From positions 1-47,712 of the forward strand of contig JAFZVF010000023.1 in assembly GCA_017617935.1 (NCBI GenBank): a stretch of DNA of 47,712 nt. Direction: 5' to 3'. The position numbers and the translations under genes were made by a program. The DNA is from Clostridiales bacterium (GTDB taxonomy: Bacteria > Bacillota > Clostridia > Saccharofermentanales > Saccharofermentanaceae). This document shows positions 7,311 to 38,010 of this stretch, piece by piece (position 1 is the stretch's first letter; each line of letters begins with the position of its first letter). Below the pieces are notes generated by a model that worked only from the letters and a program-made list of their open reading frames with translations, was not told where the DNA came from and did no database searches.

Positions 7311-7384
7311 TGATCCTATTCCTTTGAGTTTTTATACATTATAAGCCATCGCCCGCCGCCGTTCTTAATGATTGCATTCAAATT

Positions 7385-7436
7385 TGTCTCAATGGTTGTC
7401 TCAATCTCCGTTCAGATTGAGACAGATTTTGAGACA
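7385..7436. repeat. Nested dyad of TGTCTCAA words
   Basis: TGTCTCAA at 385-392 and TGTCTCAAT at 397-405 (offsets within 7000) are answered by ATTGAGACA at 416-424 and TTGAGACA at 429-436. The four arms nest into one 52-bp hairpin. It directly abuts the 72-bp repeat array. Confidence 0.75.
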
Positions 7437-9317: not shown

Positions 9318-12300
9318 CTACTCGTACTTCTTCGTGACCAGTCTGGCCTCGAATTCTTCCTTCGGGAGCGGCGGGTCATAGTAGTAGCCCTGGATGATCT
9401 CGCAGCCGAGTTCGCGCATATTGGAAAGCTGTTCTTCGGTCTCTACGCCCTCAGCGACACAGTCGAAGCCGAGGTTGTTCGAGATTGCGAGAACGCTGCT
9501 GAACATCTTGTACTTAACGCTGCCAATGCCGTCTTCTTCCCCGGGGATGAAGCTCTTGTCGATCTTTATGGTCTTCCAGGGGATGTCCCTCAAAAGGTTG
9601 AGCGAGGAATATCCCATGCCAAAATCGTCGATCGAAGCGGCAATGCCCTTGGCGTGGAGCTCCGTAACCACGCGCCTCAAGTCGTTGAACTCAACGTCGG
9701 TCGTGGTCTCCGTGAGCTCTATCTCAATTGCATCGTGCGGGATCCTGTATTTGTCCATGATCCGCTCGATCGTGTTCGGAAGATCCATGTTAAGGATGTT
9801 CTTTCTCGAGAAGTTGATCGACATCGGGACGAGCGTTCTGCCCTCGCCGCCGTCAAGCCATTTGCGCTGGTCGCGGCAGACGTGCTCGAGCATGTAAAGG
9901 TCTAGCTTGCAGATGTCGCTCGTCTGTTCAAGCGCGGGAATGAACTCGACCGGCGGGACGATCTTTCCGTCTCTGAACCATCTGCACAAAGCCTCGCCTC
10001 CGACGATCTCGCCGGTGTTTGCATTGACCTTGGGCTGGTAGAACGGATGCAATTCCTCGTTTGCGAGGGCGTCCGAGAGCATCTGCTGGATCTTGGCGTT
10101 CTTCTGTCTCTGCGCCATGAGGTTTTCGTTATAGAAAATGACCCGTCCCTTTCCTGCGTTCTGGGCGACGCGGCACGCGCTGATGATGGGTCCCATTATG
10201 TCACCGGGATCCTTGGGAACAAATCCTTCATCCGTAACAAAGACGCCGACGCTCGACGGAACCTTGACGCTGCTGTATTTGTCAATCCTGATAACGGCCT
10301 CATTGAGGTAATCCGTGATCTCTTTGAGCTTGTTCTTGGGGCCGAGGCAGACGAAATTGTCGCCTCCCAGTCTGCCGACGAAGCCGTCTTTTCCAACGAT
10401 CCTCATCAGGCCTTCGTAATGCTCCTTGATGATGCGGTCGCCCGTTTCCCTGCCGAACTCCTGGTTTATGAGCGAGAAGTGACGCAGGTTGTATCTTGCG
10501 GCCATCTTGTCCGCGAAAGTACCGGACTGGACGATCCTTGCGAGTTCGCGGTTGAGGTTTTTCAGGTTCGGATATCCAAAGTCGTCAAAATATGCAAGCT
10601 CGTAAACGATGTCCCTCATCCTGACACGGCTGACGTAGCTTATGATGGTCCTCATTACGAGTTCGAGTTTGCTTGCTTCCTCATGCGTAAGGGGCTCTTC
10701 GCCTTCCTCCATGTAAACGGTCGAAACGGTGATCGTCATGACGCTCGTAACGGCCCTGAACCTCAGGACCTCGTGGCCTTCCTTGTGCAGGTCAAAAGCG
10801 ATAAAGTTCTCGCCGTTGCCTTCCCTCTCATCCTTCGGATTTTTGTAGACCGTGGTCACGCCCTTGCAAAGCCTGAACATGAGGCCGATCTTGGTAAGGT
10901 AGTGCGTGATGCGCTTTACGTCCGCCTTTTCAAAATCGACCAAAGCAGACAGGAGCTGCTCATAAAGCTCATAGAATTTGATGAACGAATAGCCTTCAAC
11001 AGACTGGACGTCTTCGTTTATGGGCTGCTCCTTGAAACGCTTCTTGTTCGCGTACATGAGGTTGTCCGCACGCTCGAAAACGTCCTGCACCGTCAGATCG
11101 ATGCCCGGCATGTACTCCGCCATGCCGTACGCCAGCGTAACGAGATCCTGGTGTCTGTTGTCGTTCTGGATGACGTTGAACTTCTTCAAAAGATCGTATC
11201 TGTTCTCGTAATCCGATCCCCTCAGCACGATGACGAACTCGTCGCCGCCGATCCTGAATACCGGGCTGTGATCGAATATCTCGCAGATTATCGCGCACGC
11301 ATCCTTGATGTATTTGTCGCCCGCGCTGTGGCCCTGCTCGTCGTTCACCTGCTTGAGGCCGTTGATGTCGCAGACCACGATCGCAAACTCAAGGTCCACG
11401 TCCTTTTTCGAGATCTGGTTGTTGATCTGTATCTCCGTGTTGACGTATGCGTGCTTGTTCTTTACGTTCGTCAGCGCGTCCTTGTTCGCCATGTCGATCG
11501 CCGAACCGATCTTGGCCTCATACTCGATCTCGCGCCTCTTGATCTCGTCAATGTTTTCGACCGCCACGATGATATGATCCTGGTCGCTCGCAAGCCTCAT
11601 TATGACCAGCGACACGTACTGCGGGCGCCCGTCGAGCATGAGCCTGTAGTTTAAGAACAGCTTGTTGTTGAACAGATCGAGCTGTGAGAGGATGTTCTCC
11701 TTCAATATCGCCTGGGACATCATCGGATAGTCTTCCTCATAGATGTCCTTCTTCATGTTGCGCTGCGAATCAGCGAAAAAGTCGTCGCCCCTGTTGCCCA
11801 CTTCGAGCTTCGTGTACTTGTCGCTCGATGAATATTCATAGTACTCGTTCGTTTTGATGTTGACGCGGTAGATTACCTCGTACCTCATGGCCAGCGCCAT
11901 CGCGACATTGTTAAAAAGTTCATTTTCCACCACGAGCGACTGCTCGCGCTTCGTCTGCGCATCGACATTCAAAAGGCCCATAACGATGTGGTCCGGATCG
12001 TTTTTCGGTTTGACCACGTTCAGCGAAACGTACTTGACGTCCGTTCCGAGCTGCTGCCTGTAGGTCATCGTGACCATTCCGGATCTGTACAGTTTCCTCA
12101 GGAGATTCTCTTTCTCAAGCCCGTACAGGACGTAATCGAGATCGTCCTTGTGTATGATCCCTTTGACGTCTCTTGCCACATCGGCGAAAAAGTCCTTTCC
12201 GTTTGCCGTGGTGCCAAGCTTTGCAAAGGCATCGCTCGCACTGTATATCGTGTATTCATTGGTCTGGATGTTGATGTAATAGATAGCTTCATAACGGCTG

Positions 12301-12970: not shown

Positions 12971-13088
12971 GGTGTACCTAAAAGTGTCACGATTTTCCCG
13001 TTTTTAGGTACACTTTTCGGCAAATCAGCCTCGGTTTGCTTTTTTGTGTACCGATTTTTGCAAATTTAGTGACACTTTTAGGTACACC
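12971..13088. repeat. Dispersed repeat element A, copy 1
   Basis: 118 bp bounded by perfect 20-bp inverted ends, GGTGTACCTAAAAGTGTCAC. Inside are two tandem 42-bp dyads (GTGTACC 12972-12978 with GGTACAC 13007-13013; GTGTACC 13046-13052 with GGTACAC 13081-13087), a 74-bp period. Other copies lie at 23363-23480 and, inverted, 37894-38010. No transposase is encoded, so it is non-autonomous, MITE-like or REP-like. Confidence 0.8.
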
Positions 13089-23362: not shown

Positions 23363-23480
23363 TGTGTACGTATAAGTGTCACGATTTTCCCGTTTTTAGG
23401 TACACTTTTCGGCAAATCAGCCTCGATTTGCTTTTTCGTGTACCGATTATTGCAGATTTAGTGACACTTTTAGGTACACG
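23363..23480. repeat. Dispersed repeat element A, copy 2
   Basis: About 118 bp, clearly the same element as 12971-13088 and in the same orientation. The left end is degraded (GTGTACGTATAAGTGTCAC), the right end intact (GTGACACTTTTAGGTACAC). The flank after it (GTCGAGTGCGGCA) is shared with copy 3 but not copy 1. Confidence 0.8.
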
Positions 23481-23564: not shown

Positions 23565-23605
23565 TTGTCGGTTTTTGTCGGTTTTTGTCGGTTGTTTTCG
23601 TCGCA
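23565..23605. repeat. Short tandem TGTCGGTTTT repeats
   Basis: About three head-to-tail copies of a 10-bp word directly before the start of the 23626 gene. A small TTGAGA/TCTCAA hairpin lies just upstream. No function assigned. Confidence 0.5.
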
Positions 23606-23625
23606 AGAGCATATAAAATCAGCCT

Positions 23626-24402
23626 ATGAGATACTTCGACACATACATTCCACAAGAGTATTTGGCTCTTAAGATCAACTACTGCCGCCAACAACTGAAG
23701 TTGCTGCCTCAAGTCAGCGTGAATGAATTCAATTACAAAGGAGGGCAAAGAAAAAGAGTAGTGGTTGGCAGTCACCGATACAGCCTGGAAACACCGGAAG
23801 GCAACAAGTATTACAGAGTCATGCTCCTCCGAAACGACCTGGAAGAAAAGCTGCAGATCTATGAGGCGATTTGGAAACACAACTTCCTGAAGCCGGTACC
23901 TGAATACGAGGTGCCCAAGATTGCCAGGACCTTGAACACCGGCTATGAAAAAGTCGTCTTGAATAAGGATTTCTTTAACAGCCTTAAGGAAGACGCCAAC
24001 AAAAACTACTCAAAGTCCAAGGCGTATGCGTTTAATGGGATCAATTACCGTTCCGCCGCTGAGCGCGAGATCGCCATCTTCTACACTGAAGCCGGGATAC
24101 CGTTTAAATACGAGCCCGAGGTCTGGTTTAACGGCATGAGCAAACCTGCTTATCCAGATTTTGTCTTATTGATCCCCGAGCTGGACACGTGCAAGTTTCA
24201 TGAGCATTGCGGCTTGATTAACTACAACAACTATGTAAGGGATCTGACGCTTAAATGCGGCACGTATTCCGGCGCCGGTCTGATGCTGGATCAGGACGTT
24301 TACTTTACTTACAGTTCTGATGACGTAAATCTCGATATCCGCTACTTGGCTGCAAAGCTTAACGCCGTGGTTTACGGAACCATGCTCAATTTCAATCAGT
24401 AA
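23626..24402 (+). CDS. PD-(D/E)XK-like nuclease-fold protein
   Basis: 258 residues. The C-terminal half has the marks of a restriction-endonuclease-like fold: YRSAAEREIAIFYTEAGIPFKYEPE (first helix with E146/E148), PDF at 177-179 and HEHCG at 192-196, which takes the place of the E-x-K motif as in some UvrD-linked and very-short-patch-like nucleases (EH-x-G). The N-terminal 130 residues are helical and unassigned. The family appears in Clostridia as single proteins of unknown role; DNA cleavage or repair is an inference. No clear Shine-Dalgarno precedes ATG 23626 (AAGAGC only). The gene sits just after repeat element A. Confidence 0.6.
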   Translation: MRYFDTYIPQEYLALKINYCRQQLKLLPQVSVNEFNYKGGQRKRVVVGSHRYSLETPEGNKYYRVMLLRNDLEEKLQIYEAIWKHNFLKPVPEYEVPKIARTLNTGYEKVVLNKDFFNSLKEDANKNYSKSKAYAFNGINYRSAAEREIAIFYTEAGIPFKYEPEVWFNGMSKPAYPDFVLLIPELDTCKFHEHCGLINYNNYVRDLTLKCGTYSGAGLMLDQDVYFTYSSDDVNLDIRYLAAKLNAVVYGTMLNFNQ

Positions 24403-29114: not shown

Positions 29115-29147
29115 GAGCCACAATCCGGCAGAAAGGTTGGTGTGTTC

Positions 29148-29696
29148 ATGAACAAACGCGTTTTGGCAATCGTCATGTCCGCCTGCATGCTGTCCTCGTT
29201 AACGGCGTGCGACGTTTTCAACGGCCTGATCAATCCGACCGAAAAGCCGACAATGACGATTCCTACGGACACGGAAACCGAGGAAACTACCACCACGGAA
29301 GCTACAACTGAAGAGACCGCCACTACCGAGGAAACGACGACCACCACCGCCGAGGCGACGGCCTCCGAAGACGCCACCATGGCAGACGTGACCGATCCGG
29401 CCGACACTTCCGCGCCGTCCGCTACCGCCACCCCCAAGCCCGCCAAGAAGCCGTCCTCCATCCCCAAGGGCTGGCAAAAGGTAAAGGCCGCTTACGGCAA
29501 AAAGTACAAAGGCAAATACGTCTACGTCATCATGAAGAACTACCAGTACAAGGGCTGGTACAACGGCAAGTGGATAAAGCTCTACGATGACACTTATACA
29601 GTTGATGACGACGGCGAAAACCACATCGAAGGCGTGACCCTTTACCGCGACAAGAACGAAAAGTACATATACGCCGAGTTCCAGGAAAAACGGTAA
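29148..29696 (+). CDS. Small secreted lipoprotein with Thr/Glu-rich linker
   Basis: 182 residues. Signal peptide with lipobox SLTAC (cysteine at about residue 21), a linker of about 80 residues made almost only of Thr, Glu and Ala, then a compact C-terminal domain of about 75 residues rich in Tyr, Lys and Trp (KGWQKVKAAYGKKYKGKYVYV, YKGWYNGKWIKLYDD). It should be displayed on the cell surface; the aromatic end may bind a polymer. ATG 29148 follows AAAGG; a GTG six bases earlier is less likely. It is close behind the GGDEF/EAL gene and shares its transcription direction, so it may be a co-expressed output of that signalling protein. Confidence 0.7.
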   Translation: MNKRVLAIVMSACMLSSLTACDVFNGLINPTEKPTMTIPTDTETEETTTTEATTEETATTEETTTTTAEATASEDATMADVTDPADTSAPSATATPKPAKKPSSIPKGWQKVKAAYGKKYKGKYVYVIMKNYQYKGWYNGKWIKLYDDTYTVDDDGENHIEGVTLYRDKNEKYIYAEFQEKR

Positions 29697-29716
29697 GCAC
29701 AAGTCTTCATTATATG

Positions 29717-29748
29717 TCCGGTCCCACTCCCGGGGCCGGATTTTTGTT
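29717..29748 (+). terminator. Terminator after the lipoprotein gene
   Basis: CCGGTCCC and GGGGCCGG pair (one G-T pair) around a six-base loop, followed by ATTTTTG. Confidence 0.7.
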
Positions 29749-29875
29749 TAATTCCAAGATTACCTGCCAAGGTTCGGCCAAAGTTGCCCGATAACTTGGA
29801 ATATTGTTCAAATAGCGGCTTAATTCCATGTTTACCTGCCAAGATTCTCAAAAAGTTGGCAGGTAATCTTGGAAC
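29749..29875. repeat. Two tandem dyads at a 72-bp period (array C)
   Basis: Units begin TAATTCC at 29749 and again at 29821, exactly 72 bp apart, and each ends in CTTGGAA about 50 bp later. Unit two is a nearly perfect hairpin (TTACCTGCCAA with TTGGCAGGTAA); unit one has a weaker one. The dyad words differ from those of the 7435 array, but the 72-bp period and 52-54-bp dyad length are the same. Confidence 0.75.
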
Positions 29876-30030: not shown

Positions 30031-30996
30031 ATGAACTCATTCTCCGAAAAGATACTCAATAACGTTAATAAAGTCATCGTCGGAAAAGACGACCAGATCG
30101 AGCTGCTCCTGATCTCCCTTCTGGTCGGCGGACACGTGCTCTTGGAAGACGTTCCGGGAACCGGCAAGACCAAGACTGCAAAAGCTTTGGCGGCATCGCT
30201 CGACCTTGATTTCAAGCGCGTGCAGTTCACTATCGACCTTCTGCCTTCCGACCTGACGGGCATCAATTTCTTCGACCGCGAGGCGAACTCCTTCGTCTTC
30301 AGAAAGGGCCCGATCTTCACGAACATCCTGCTTGCCGACGAGATCAACCGCGCGACCGCAAGGACGCAGTCGAGCCTTCTCGAGTGCATGGAGGAAAAGC
30401 AGGTCACGGTCGACGGCGACACCAAGAAATTGGAGCCCCCGTTCCTCGTAATCGCGACGCAGAATCCGGTCGAATCGCAGGGCACGTTCCCGCTTCCCGA
30501 GGCGCAGCTCGACCGTTTCCTCATGATGATAAAGATGAACTATCCCACACATGGTGAAAGCATAGACATCCTCAAGCGCTTTGCGACTGAGGACCCGCTC
30601 GACACGCTCGCGCCCGTCACTACAAGGGAAGAGCTTGCCCAGATGCAGGAGCAGGTCAAGAAGATCTTCGTTTCAGACCTCCTGTACGACTACGCGGCAA
30701 AGATCGTTGAAGCGACCAGGGAATCTGACGACGTCGCCGTCGGAGCGAGCCCCCGTGCGCTTCTCGCGTTCGTGGCTGCAGCAAAGGCAAGGGCTTTCGT
30801 AAGAGACCGCACAAACTGCATCCCGGATGACTTCAAGGCCCTCGCAGTGCCTGTTCTTGCGCACCGCCTGACGGTAAGGCTCCAGAGGGCCGTTTCGAAG
30901 GATGTAAAGTTCCTTTCGAAGCGCGACGTGGCAGAAGAGCTCATGGGCAAGATCTTGGACGAAGTACCCTGCCCGACCGAAGACTTCAGCAGATAA
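30031..30996 (+). CDS. MoxR-type AAA+ ATPase
   Basis: 321 residues. Walker A VPGTGKTK (41-48), Walker B LLADEINRA, sensor 1 ATQNPVE, sensor 2 region GASPRALLAF; ends in DEVPCP. MoxR ATPases act as chaperones for assembling protein complexes, often with a DUF58 partner carrying a von Willebrand-like region. It is the first gene of a three-gene operon with the DUF58 protein and a membrane protein, an arrangement widespread in bacteria and tied to cell-envelope or stress functions. ATG 30031 follows GGAAAGG. Confidence 0.93.
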   Translation: MNSFSEKILNNVNKVIVGKDDQIELLLISLLVGGHVLLEDVPGTGKTKTAKALAASLDLDFKRVQFTIDLLPSDLTGINFFDREANSFVFRKGPIFTNILLADEINRATARTQSSLLECMEEKQVTVDGDTKKLEPPFLVIATQNPVESQGTFPLPEAQLDRFLMMIKMNYPTHGESIDILKRFATEDPLDTLAPVTTREELAQMQEQVKKIFVSDLLYDYAAKIVEATRESDDVAVGASPRALLAFVAAAKARAFVRDRTNCIPDDFKALAVPVLAHRLTVRLQRAVSKDVKFLSKRDVAEELMGKILDEVPCPTEDFSR

Positions 30997-37760: not shown

Positions 37761-37874
37761 GTTCACGAAAAGGGACACGAAAATGATTGATTTCGTGTCC
37801 CAAAACGTGAATCAGATGCGATATTCACAAATCGGGACACGGATTTGGCAAAAAACGTGTCCCTTGTCGTGAAC
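37761..37874. repeat. Repeat element B: two tandem 52-bp hairpins
   Basis: Unit one (37761-37812) runs GTTCACG...CGTGAAT with inner arms GGGACACG (37772-37779) and CGTGTCCC (37794-37801). Unit two (37823-37874) runs ATTCAC...CGTGAAC with inner arms GGGACACG (37834-37841) and CGTGTCCC (37856-37863). The period is 62 bp. A remnant arm lies at 13113-13131. As in element A, the four arms alternate in direction and could pair either neighbour-to-neighbour or outer-to-outer. Confidence 0.8.
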
Positions 37875-37893
37875 CATAGCTGCCGCACTCGAC

Positions 37894-38010
37894 GTGTACC
37901 TAAAAGTGTCACAAAATCCGCAAAAATCAGCACACACATAAGCAAACCGAGGCTGATTTGCCAAAAAGTGTACCTAAAAACGGGAAAAATCGTGACACTT
38001 TTAGTGACAC
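37894..38010. repeat. Dispersed repeat element A, copy 3 (inverted)
   Basis: About 117 bp, the same element as at 12971 and 23363 but in the opposite orientation. Its outer flank (GCCGCACTCGAC) is shared with copy 2; its other flank (CCACGACCGCAGCC) resembles the left flank of copy 1. Confidence 0.8.

Follow-up and report, generated by a model that had tools for sequence, protein, structure and literature searches.

The palindrome array at positions 29751-29875 probably represents a cognate site of a chromosomal nuclease with a predicted PD-(D/E)XK fold, dispersed as a non-autonomous copy, and together array and nuclease would form a competence-linked system resembling REP elements and their RAYT enzymes. 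The window, the whole 47,712-nt stretch that was analysed, is contig C77 of a draft Saccharofermentans-like rumen genome (2.21 Mb, 110 contigs, 81% complete); all of the DNA considered here comes from draft assemblies, mostly MAGs. The array and its surroundings comprise the following features.

29142-29696, + strand: upstream gene, lipoprotein-like by eye, with its terminator preceding the array
29716-29750, + strand: intrinsic terminator belonging to the upstream gene, with a T-run that ends at the array border
29751-29802, no strand: class A dyad unit 1, 52 bp, ATTCCAAG...CTTGGAAT, outer words TTCCAAG/CTTGGAA
29803-29822, no strand: linker between class A units 1 and 2, 20 bp, from sequence
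29823-29875, no strand: class A dyad unit 2, 53 bp, ATTCCATG...CTTGGAAC, left word TTCCATG
30031-30996, + strand: gene of a MoxR-type AAA ATPase downstream of the array, used as synteny anchor

The sequence and a repeat search of the window agree on two dyads, 29751-29802 and 29823-29875, with a start-to-start spacing of exactly 72 bp. The initial annotation had described two units 72 bp apart, each with the words TTCCAAG/CTTGGAA; the spacing is exact, whereas its coordinates fall 2 bp early, and the words hold for unit 1 and not for the left arm of unit 2, which reads TTCCATG. Both units fold better as RNA than shuffled sequences (z = -3.3 for unit 1 and -6.4 for unit 2). No known RNA family matches over the array at the Rfam gathering score, the sole match in the window being RF02442 at 228-443, and identity of the array as an Rfam RNA family, a tRNA or a tmRNA was rejected. 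The RF02442 match is on the - strand at 53.7 bits; the family is the Streptococcus sRNA SpF66, which would not be expected in this organism, and strong dyads are present at 236-267 and 644-683. Tandem Repeats Finder, run on two array stretches, did not report the arrays and is thus unsuitable as an array detector. The MoxR protein of the window shares 97% identity with its counterpart in the rumen MAG Saccharofermentans sp. RUI139.

The sequence of unit 2 is found again in the same genome, on contig C45 at 95% identity over 60 nt (E = 2e-20) and at further sites. In this genome, a class A profile built from 33 hand-picked units matches 43 distinct units (E ≤ 0.02), spread over 24 loci, and the idea that the words are specific to a locus was accordingly rejected; each word defines a family that extends over the genome and is usually linked to a single nuclease paralog. 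Each unit consists of an outer word and an inner word followed by the inner and outer words inverted. Of the 19 pairs of adjacent class A units among hits on the + strand, 18 have a spacing of exactly 72 bp and one of 73 bp; all five pairs that took no part in building the profile are at exactly 72 bp. The linkers of different pairs are constant in length and variable in sequence. Three congeners (G009, G018 and G028) have arrays of two or three units, again exactly 72 bp apart in 15 of the 15 adjacent pairs listed, and 6 of the 30 genomes in the genus set, this one included, match the profile at E ≤ 0.01. Class B is a second genome-wide word family, and further families in this genome carry the words GTGTACC, GGTAC, TATCC, TAGGTACC and GTTTACG. 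Elements other than class A in the window are listed below.

7380-7436, no strand: third-word dyad (GTCTCAAT) that directly adjoins the class B array; a similar fusion occurs at C17
7436-7631, no strand: class B array of three units at 7436, 7508 and 7580, 72-bp period, from profile search
12972-13087, no strand: 74-class element, words GTGTACC/GTGTCAC, from dyad scan and similarity search
23364-23480, no strand: 74-class element, words GTGTACC/GTGTCAC, upstream of a nuclease gene
37761-37874, no strand: 62-class element, words TTCACG/GGGACACG, unit 50, linker 12
37881-38003, no strand: further GTGTACC 74-class copy, beside the 62-class element at 37761-37874

The class B units reproduce the 72-bp period with other words, as the initial annotation had noted for the array it placed at 7435. 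Third-word dyads (TTCTCAAT / GTCTCAAT) adjoin class B arrays at several loci (window 7380-7436, L020, L054 and L057), and at 37761-38003 one element of the 62 class and one of the 74 class, with different words, almost abut, as such elements do near the C86 and C41 copies. The GTGTACC element has 12 further matches in the same genome at E ≤ 0.01, with identity of up to 95%; it has inverted ends, and some copies share a flank on one side. No target-site duplication was seen around its copies. An intrinsic terminator points into 14 of the 24 class A and B arrays of this genome, against 88 of 825 control sites.

Applied to the MoxR loci of the clade (1.10 Mb) and to three genomes (1.03 Mb), a scan that ignores the words and searches for three evenly spaced dyad centres gave 73 and 96 hits, respectively, as compared with 0 and 1 after local shuffling; outgroup MoxR loci (0.24 Mb) gave 6 hits without a peak. 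The scan recovered many word families of one design, in line with the proposal that a single architecture recurs with different words, and the anticipated excess of this period among dyads is present, 72-74 bp being the largest peak. The period is not 72 bp alone: array periods cluster at 50-52, 61-64 and 72-74.5 bp, so that the two further classes are about one and about two helical turns shorter. When one best pair was taken per locus at T ≥ 33 and the scan covered 48-80 bp, 44 loci were tallied, with 5 at 50-52, 16 at 61-64 and 23 at 72-74.5 bp and none elsewhere. The Rayleigh R at 10.5 bp is 0.86 for these 44 loci, which were treated as independent though the families are related, and 0.76 for the 61 loci found at T ≥ 30, likewise treated as independent. 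Inner words of the GGRACACG family, which belongs to the 62 class, stand 22, 40 and 22 bp apart in all elements from which the four were recovered. Together, the period classes and these fixed distances indicate that spacing changes in steps of about one helical turn, a constraint that supports the structural role suggested by the initial annotation.

The second component of the system was found beside the arrays. The window encodes a 258-aa protein with seven paralogs in the same genome, and its gene is preceded by a short promoter motif.

23565-23590, + strand: TTGTCGGTTTTTGTCGGTTTTTGTCG motif, also present in competence-gene promoters, from motif search
23626-24402, + strand: one of eight paralogous nuclease-family genes; 258-aa product with PD-(D/E)XK-like motifs

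A two-unit array lies within 170 bp of six of the eight paralogs, each with its own word: class B adjoins the paralog on C79, the TATCC family that on C66, the TAGGTACC family that on C98, the GTGTACC family that on C77 (the window) and the GGTAC family that on C84, and GTTTACG stands on both sides of the paralog on C93. A class A unit starts at the stop codon of the paralog at C105:795-1556, which is likely to encode the class A enzyme; this gene has a single unit only and was scored as having no array. No array was found at the C104 paralog, and the GGGACACG elements of this genome are without a distinct resident nuclease gene. In RUI139, two 62-class elements flank the ortholog of the window gene at 23626-24402.

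This association extends across the genus. From 92 nuclease hits, 79 remained after removal of 13 duplicates and 74 after removal of 5 with less than 300 bp on one flank. A phased array lies within 400 bp of 58 of these 74 genes, as opposed to 81 of 1157 other ORFs (Fisher 8e-46), and the 81 array-bearing controls may include neighbours of nuclease genes; the other 16 nuclease genes have no array at the threshold used. When the eight genes of the genome from which the hypothesis arose are excluded, an array stands beside 52 of 66. Most arrays lie either 90-190 bp upstream of the start codon or 0-50 bp downstream of the stop codon. By profile search, the nuclease genes occur in all 30 genomes of the genus set, with 1-14 in each, and across the class in 43 of 392 genomes and 20 of 219 genera. 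Outside the genus, where the counts are without a control set, arrays lie beside several family members with periods of 53-54, 64.5, 75 and 83-84 bp, at 13 of 18 loci when T ≥ 26 and the period is 40-90 bp and at 6 of 18 when T ≥ 35. The period class tracks the nuclease tree, requiring 13 changes as compared with a mean of 24.6 and a minimum of 20 in 100 shuffles. Similarity of words between genes is clear only above 60% protein identity, which points to fast word turnover; no clear difference was seen between the N- and C-terminal halves of the protein as the better tracker of the words.

The paralogs are about 250-270 aa in length and match no Pfam family at its cut-off and no NCBIfam model. 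In the family alignment, S-x-x-E, YE, PD(F/Y) and E-(F/H)-x-G are kept, and S, E, YE, PD, E, G and Y are invariant or nearly so in 44 sequences. The AlphaFold model of the C105 protein, the likely class A cognate, has a mean pLDDT of 94.9, and its residues from about 120 to 252 align to the Bax1 endonuclease (Z 8.7, rmsd 2.9, 108 aligned); Can2 follows at Z 6.8 and several restriction enzymes are lower. Rows with Z < 8 are insufficient alone, and the order of the motifs supports the assignment: the modelled C-terminal region has a PD-(D/E)XK fold, and nuclease activity is predicted. There is a weak profile match to T7 endonuclease I over the catalytic motif (E 0.04), a match to phrog_9019, a phage Holliday junction resolvase profile (E 3e-5), and a match to the C-terminus of the PADLOC candidate defence protein PDC-S68, for which the best E per protein ranges from 1e-6 to 1e-26. 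The N-terminal half alone is without a convincing structural match among the families listed (Foldseek E ≥ 0.07, VIA Z ≤ 4.4), and from its dsRBD-like look no fold is claimed at these scores. The class A cognate protein has no tblastn match in plasmid or phage collections and none in viral contigs.

The promoter motif connects the nuclease genes with competence genes. The pattern TTGTCG-NN-TTTTGTCG has 13 sites in this genome and the reversed-pattern control has 0. The sites precede seven of the eight nuclease paralogs, comM, comEA, comEC and two pilus-type loci, one of which leads to a T2SSE ATPase; apart from a site at a contig end, the motif is confined to competence-type and nuclease genes. 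Gene names near the motif were taken from Pfam (Mg_chelatase; SLBB and HHH; PF03772; T2SSE), and a small ORF beside it, C105:47942, which lacks a Pfam match, was judged pilus-type by eye. When the set was widened, TGTCG-N5-TGTCG was found to precede 40 of 79 nuclease genes, as against 1 of 1250 other ORFs; nuclease genes retrieved from outside the genus did not show it in their upstream regions. We infer that the TTGTCG repeat is a competence operator.

Comparison of orthologous sites and of words within arrays shows that the arrays change quickly. In the nearest relative (L125), the site upstream of moxR has the same terminator and lacks the array; this empty site may be ancestral or the result of a deletion. 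Upstream of moxR in three other relatives (L128, L129 and L131) stand arrays of other words, those of L128 and L129 having a period of 72 bp in the scan. At L128, upstream of moxR at 10001, the array is a long tandem run of 72-bp units with the word GTCCCTG in near-identical copies, whereas units elsewhere are diverged; at L129, the words within one array (9500-9800) shift from AGCTGTTT to TTCTCTG to TTCCATC, with hybrid units. When inner words of 62-class elements from three genomes were paired, agreement was 81% within elements (93 pairs) and 42% between them (1987 pairs; permutation p 0.0005). This set holds 17 elements, three of them with three words rather than four, and leaves out partial 62-class hits (RUI139 C64 and, in the genome of the window, C66, C86 and C41). 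The higher agreement within elements indicates that words change in concert inside one element, and such local homogenisation bears out the suggestion in the initial annotation of a copying mechanism within a locus.

The paired columns of the units covary in register, at 0.077 as compared with 0.0003 (sd 0.013) in permutations and about 0 in slid versions; 59 units were kept of 66 matched, at least one chance sequence among them. In-register covariation of the arms is compatible both with base pairing and with two-fold protein sites. A weaker 12-bp signal is also found, direct (0.04-0.07) and cross-inverted (0.07), relatedness being only partly controlled; since the in-register signal is joined by these direct and cross-inverted signals, selection for a hairpin only was rejected.

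We favour the following account of these observations. Each nuclease paralog would have its own word, presented as two-fold symmetric units spaced by about 5, 6 or 7 helical turns, a spacing that fits assembly of enzyme subunits along the same face of the helix, spanning two or more units. As the genes carry the motif of competence-gene promoters, the enzyme is probably produced during DNA uptake. Cutting or nicking at or between arrays, and subsequent repair or recombination that might involve incoming DNA, would homogenise the words in an array and seed further arrays, with sites behind terminators favoured. A more specific form of this reading, which we put forward tentatively and regard as somewhat unlikely, is a competence-coupled drive: a word-specific nuclease made during uptake would assemble on phased arrays and cut, and templated repair with incoming or ectopic copies would spread and rewrite the arrays, as in a gene-drive-like analogue of REP/RAYT that uses transformation. 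Enzyme and word would then co-diverge fast, so that sister species have different words at the same intergenic site.

Other explanations account for part of the evidence. A nucleoid protein, gyrase or a transcription insulator could use the arrays as a phased scaffold behind terminators, a host function in which the nuclease would be a chance regulated neighbour. The terminator bias, the helical phasing and the finding that several species have an array at one position upstream of moxR, with words that differ between them, would all suit such a function; we nevertheless judge it unlikely, because word families are tied to nuclease paralogs, the closest relative has no array, and a single host protein would not explain the fast turnover of words. 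A comparably low probability attaches to the notion that the arrays are not mobile and act on transforming DNA, marking, trapping or protecting it, with the nuclease processing imported or recombining DNA there in the manner of a self-recognition signal. The promoter motif common to comEA, comEC, comM and pilus-type genes and the fast divergence of words between species speak for this possibility, but each family has tens of copies, far below the hundreds to thousands of uptake motifs described for Pasteurellaceae and Neisseriae in PMC2346458.

That the palindromes act as RNA, as terminators or hairpins at mRNA 3' ends with no dedicated enzyme, is very improbable. The units do fold better than shuffles and their arms covary in register, yet a terminator is already present before over half of the class A and B arrays of this genome, RNA hairpins do not need constant linkers or spacing steps of one turn, and the arrays are associated with one gene family. 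Ordinary REP/BIME elements spread by a RAYT (Y1, HUH) transposase would follow the same logic of palindromes, regular spacing and an adjoining cognate enzyme gene. This origin was rejected, and we give it hardly any weight, as Y1_Tnp (PF01797) is missing from the array-rich genomes: it has no match in the genome of the window (81% complete) or in G005, G009, G018 and G028 (91-99% complete), and it is matched by control genomes and by 16 of 59 genus-set genomes.

The preferred reading, a nuclease with dispersed cognate arrays, nonetheless shares much with REP/BIME/REPIN elements and RAYTs as portrayed in PMC2817692 and PMC3116915: palindromes lie outside genes in clusters of regular spacing, a genome has more than one family and each family stands beside its own enzyme gene, and hybrid arrays, compensatory changes and fast turnover occur. 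According to PMC2817692, genes stand between inverted REPs, co-evolution occurs and BIMEs can be hybrid. The present system differs in that its enzyme has a predicted PD-(D/E)XK fold rather than HUH/Y1, that arrays are often one-sided and two-sided only in some cases such as C93, that unit spacing falls into helical-turn classes and that the enzyme genes have a promoter motif in common with competence genes. T7 endonuclease I and the junction-resolving PD-(D/E)XK enzymes show a weak likeness by sequence profile and the N-terminal half here is different; PDC-S68 is alike in its C-terminal nuclease region, but its models are of about 1200 aa, in comparison with the 250-270 aa of the proteins beside arrays. 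DNA uptake sequences of Neisseria and Haemophilus are alike in their short repeated words and link to competence and differ from the phased multi-unit arrays, many words per genome and cognate nuclease seen here.

Rpn and YhgA-like nucleases are PD-(D/E)XK enzymes. To our knowledge, no association of Rpn genes with palindrome arrays is known. The proteins here have no Pfam Rpn match (PF04754; none in hmmscan of the eight paralogs at E ≤ 0.1 or ≤ 1) and are similar to that family, as described in PMC5350276, in having several paralogs and a link to horizontal transfer. No description of such a system was found in the open-access literature that was searched, and the Rfam, Pfam and NCBIfam libraries searched have no model of the array or enzyme family. 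REP/RAYT, the one near kind, fails on the defining enzyme, with the analogy of mechanism still close; the system may represent a new type of repeat-spreading or DNA-exchange system. If so, palindromic intergenic repeats would have arisen at least twice, around unrelated enzymes, the geometry of the complex would be readable from the spacing of the DNA (5, 6 or 7 turns), and there would be a direct connection to natural transformation. The purpose of REP-like repeats would also become testable, with enzyme-site pairs set by neighbourhood, words that can be swapped and transformation as the natural assay, and modular small nucleases with diverse cognate words would be a source of new DNA-recognition specificities.

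Two minor observations concern the nuclease promoters and their motif. A TATAAT-like box lies a few bases before the nuclease ATG, for example at 23605-23626 of the window, and the distance from motif to start is 51-52 bp in most paralogs of this genome; as the box is so close to the ATG, the nuclease-gene mRNAs may be leaderless. The thirteenth copy of the motif (G000:C75:122, L348) stands at a contig end with no called gene and possibly marks another member of the regulon.
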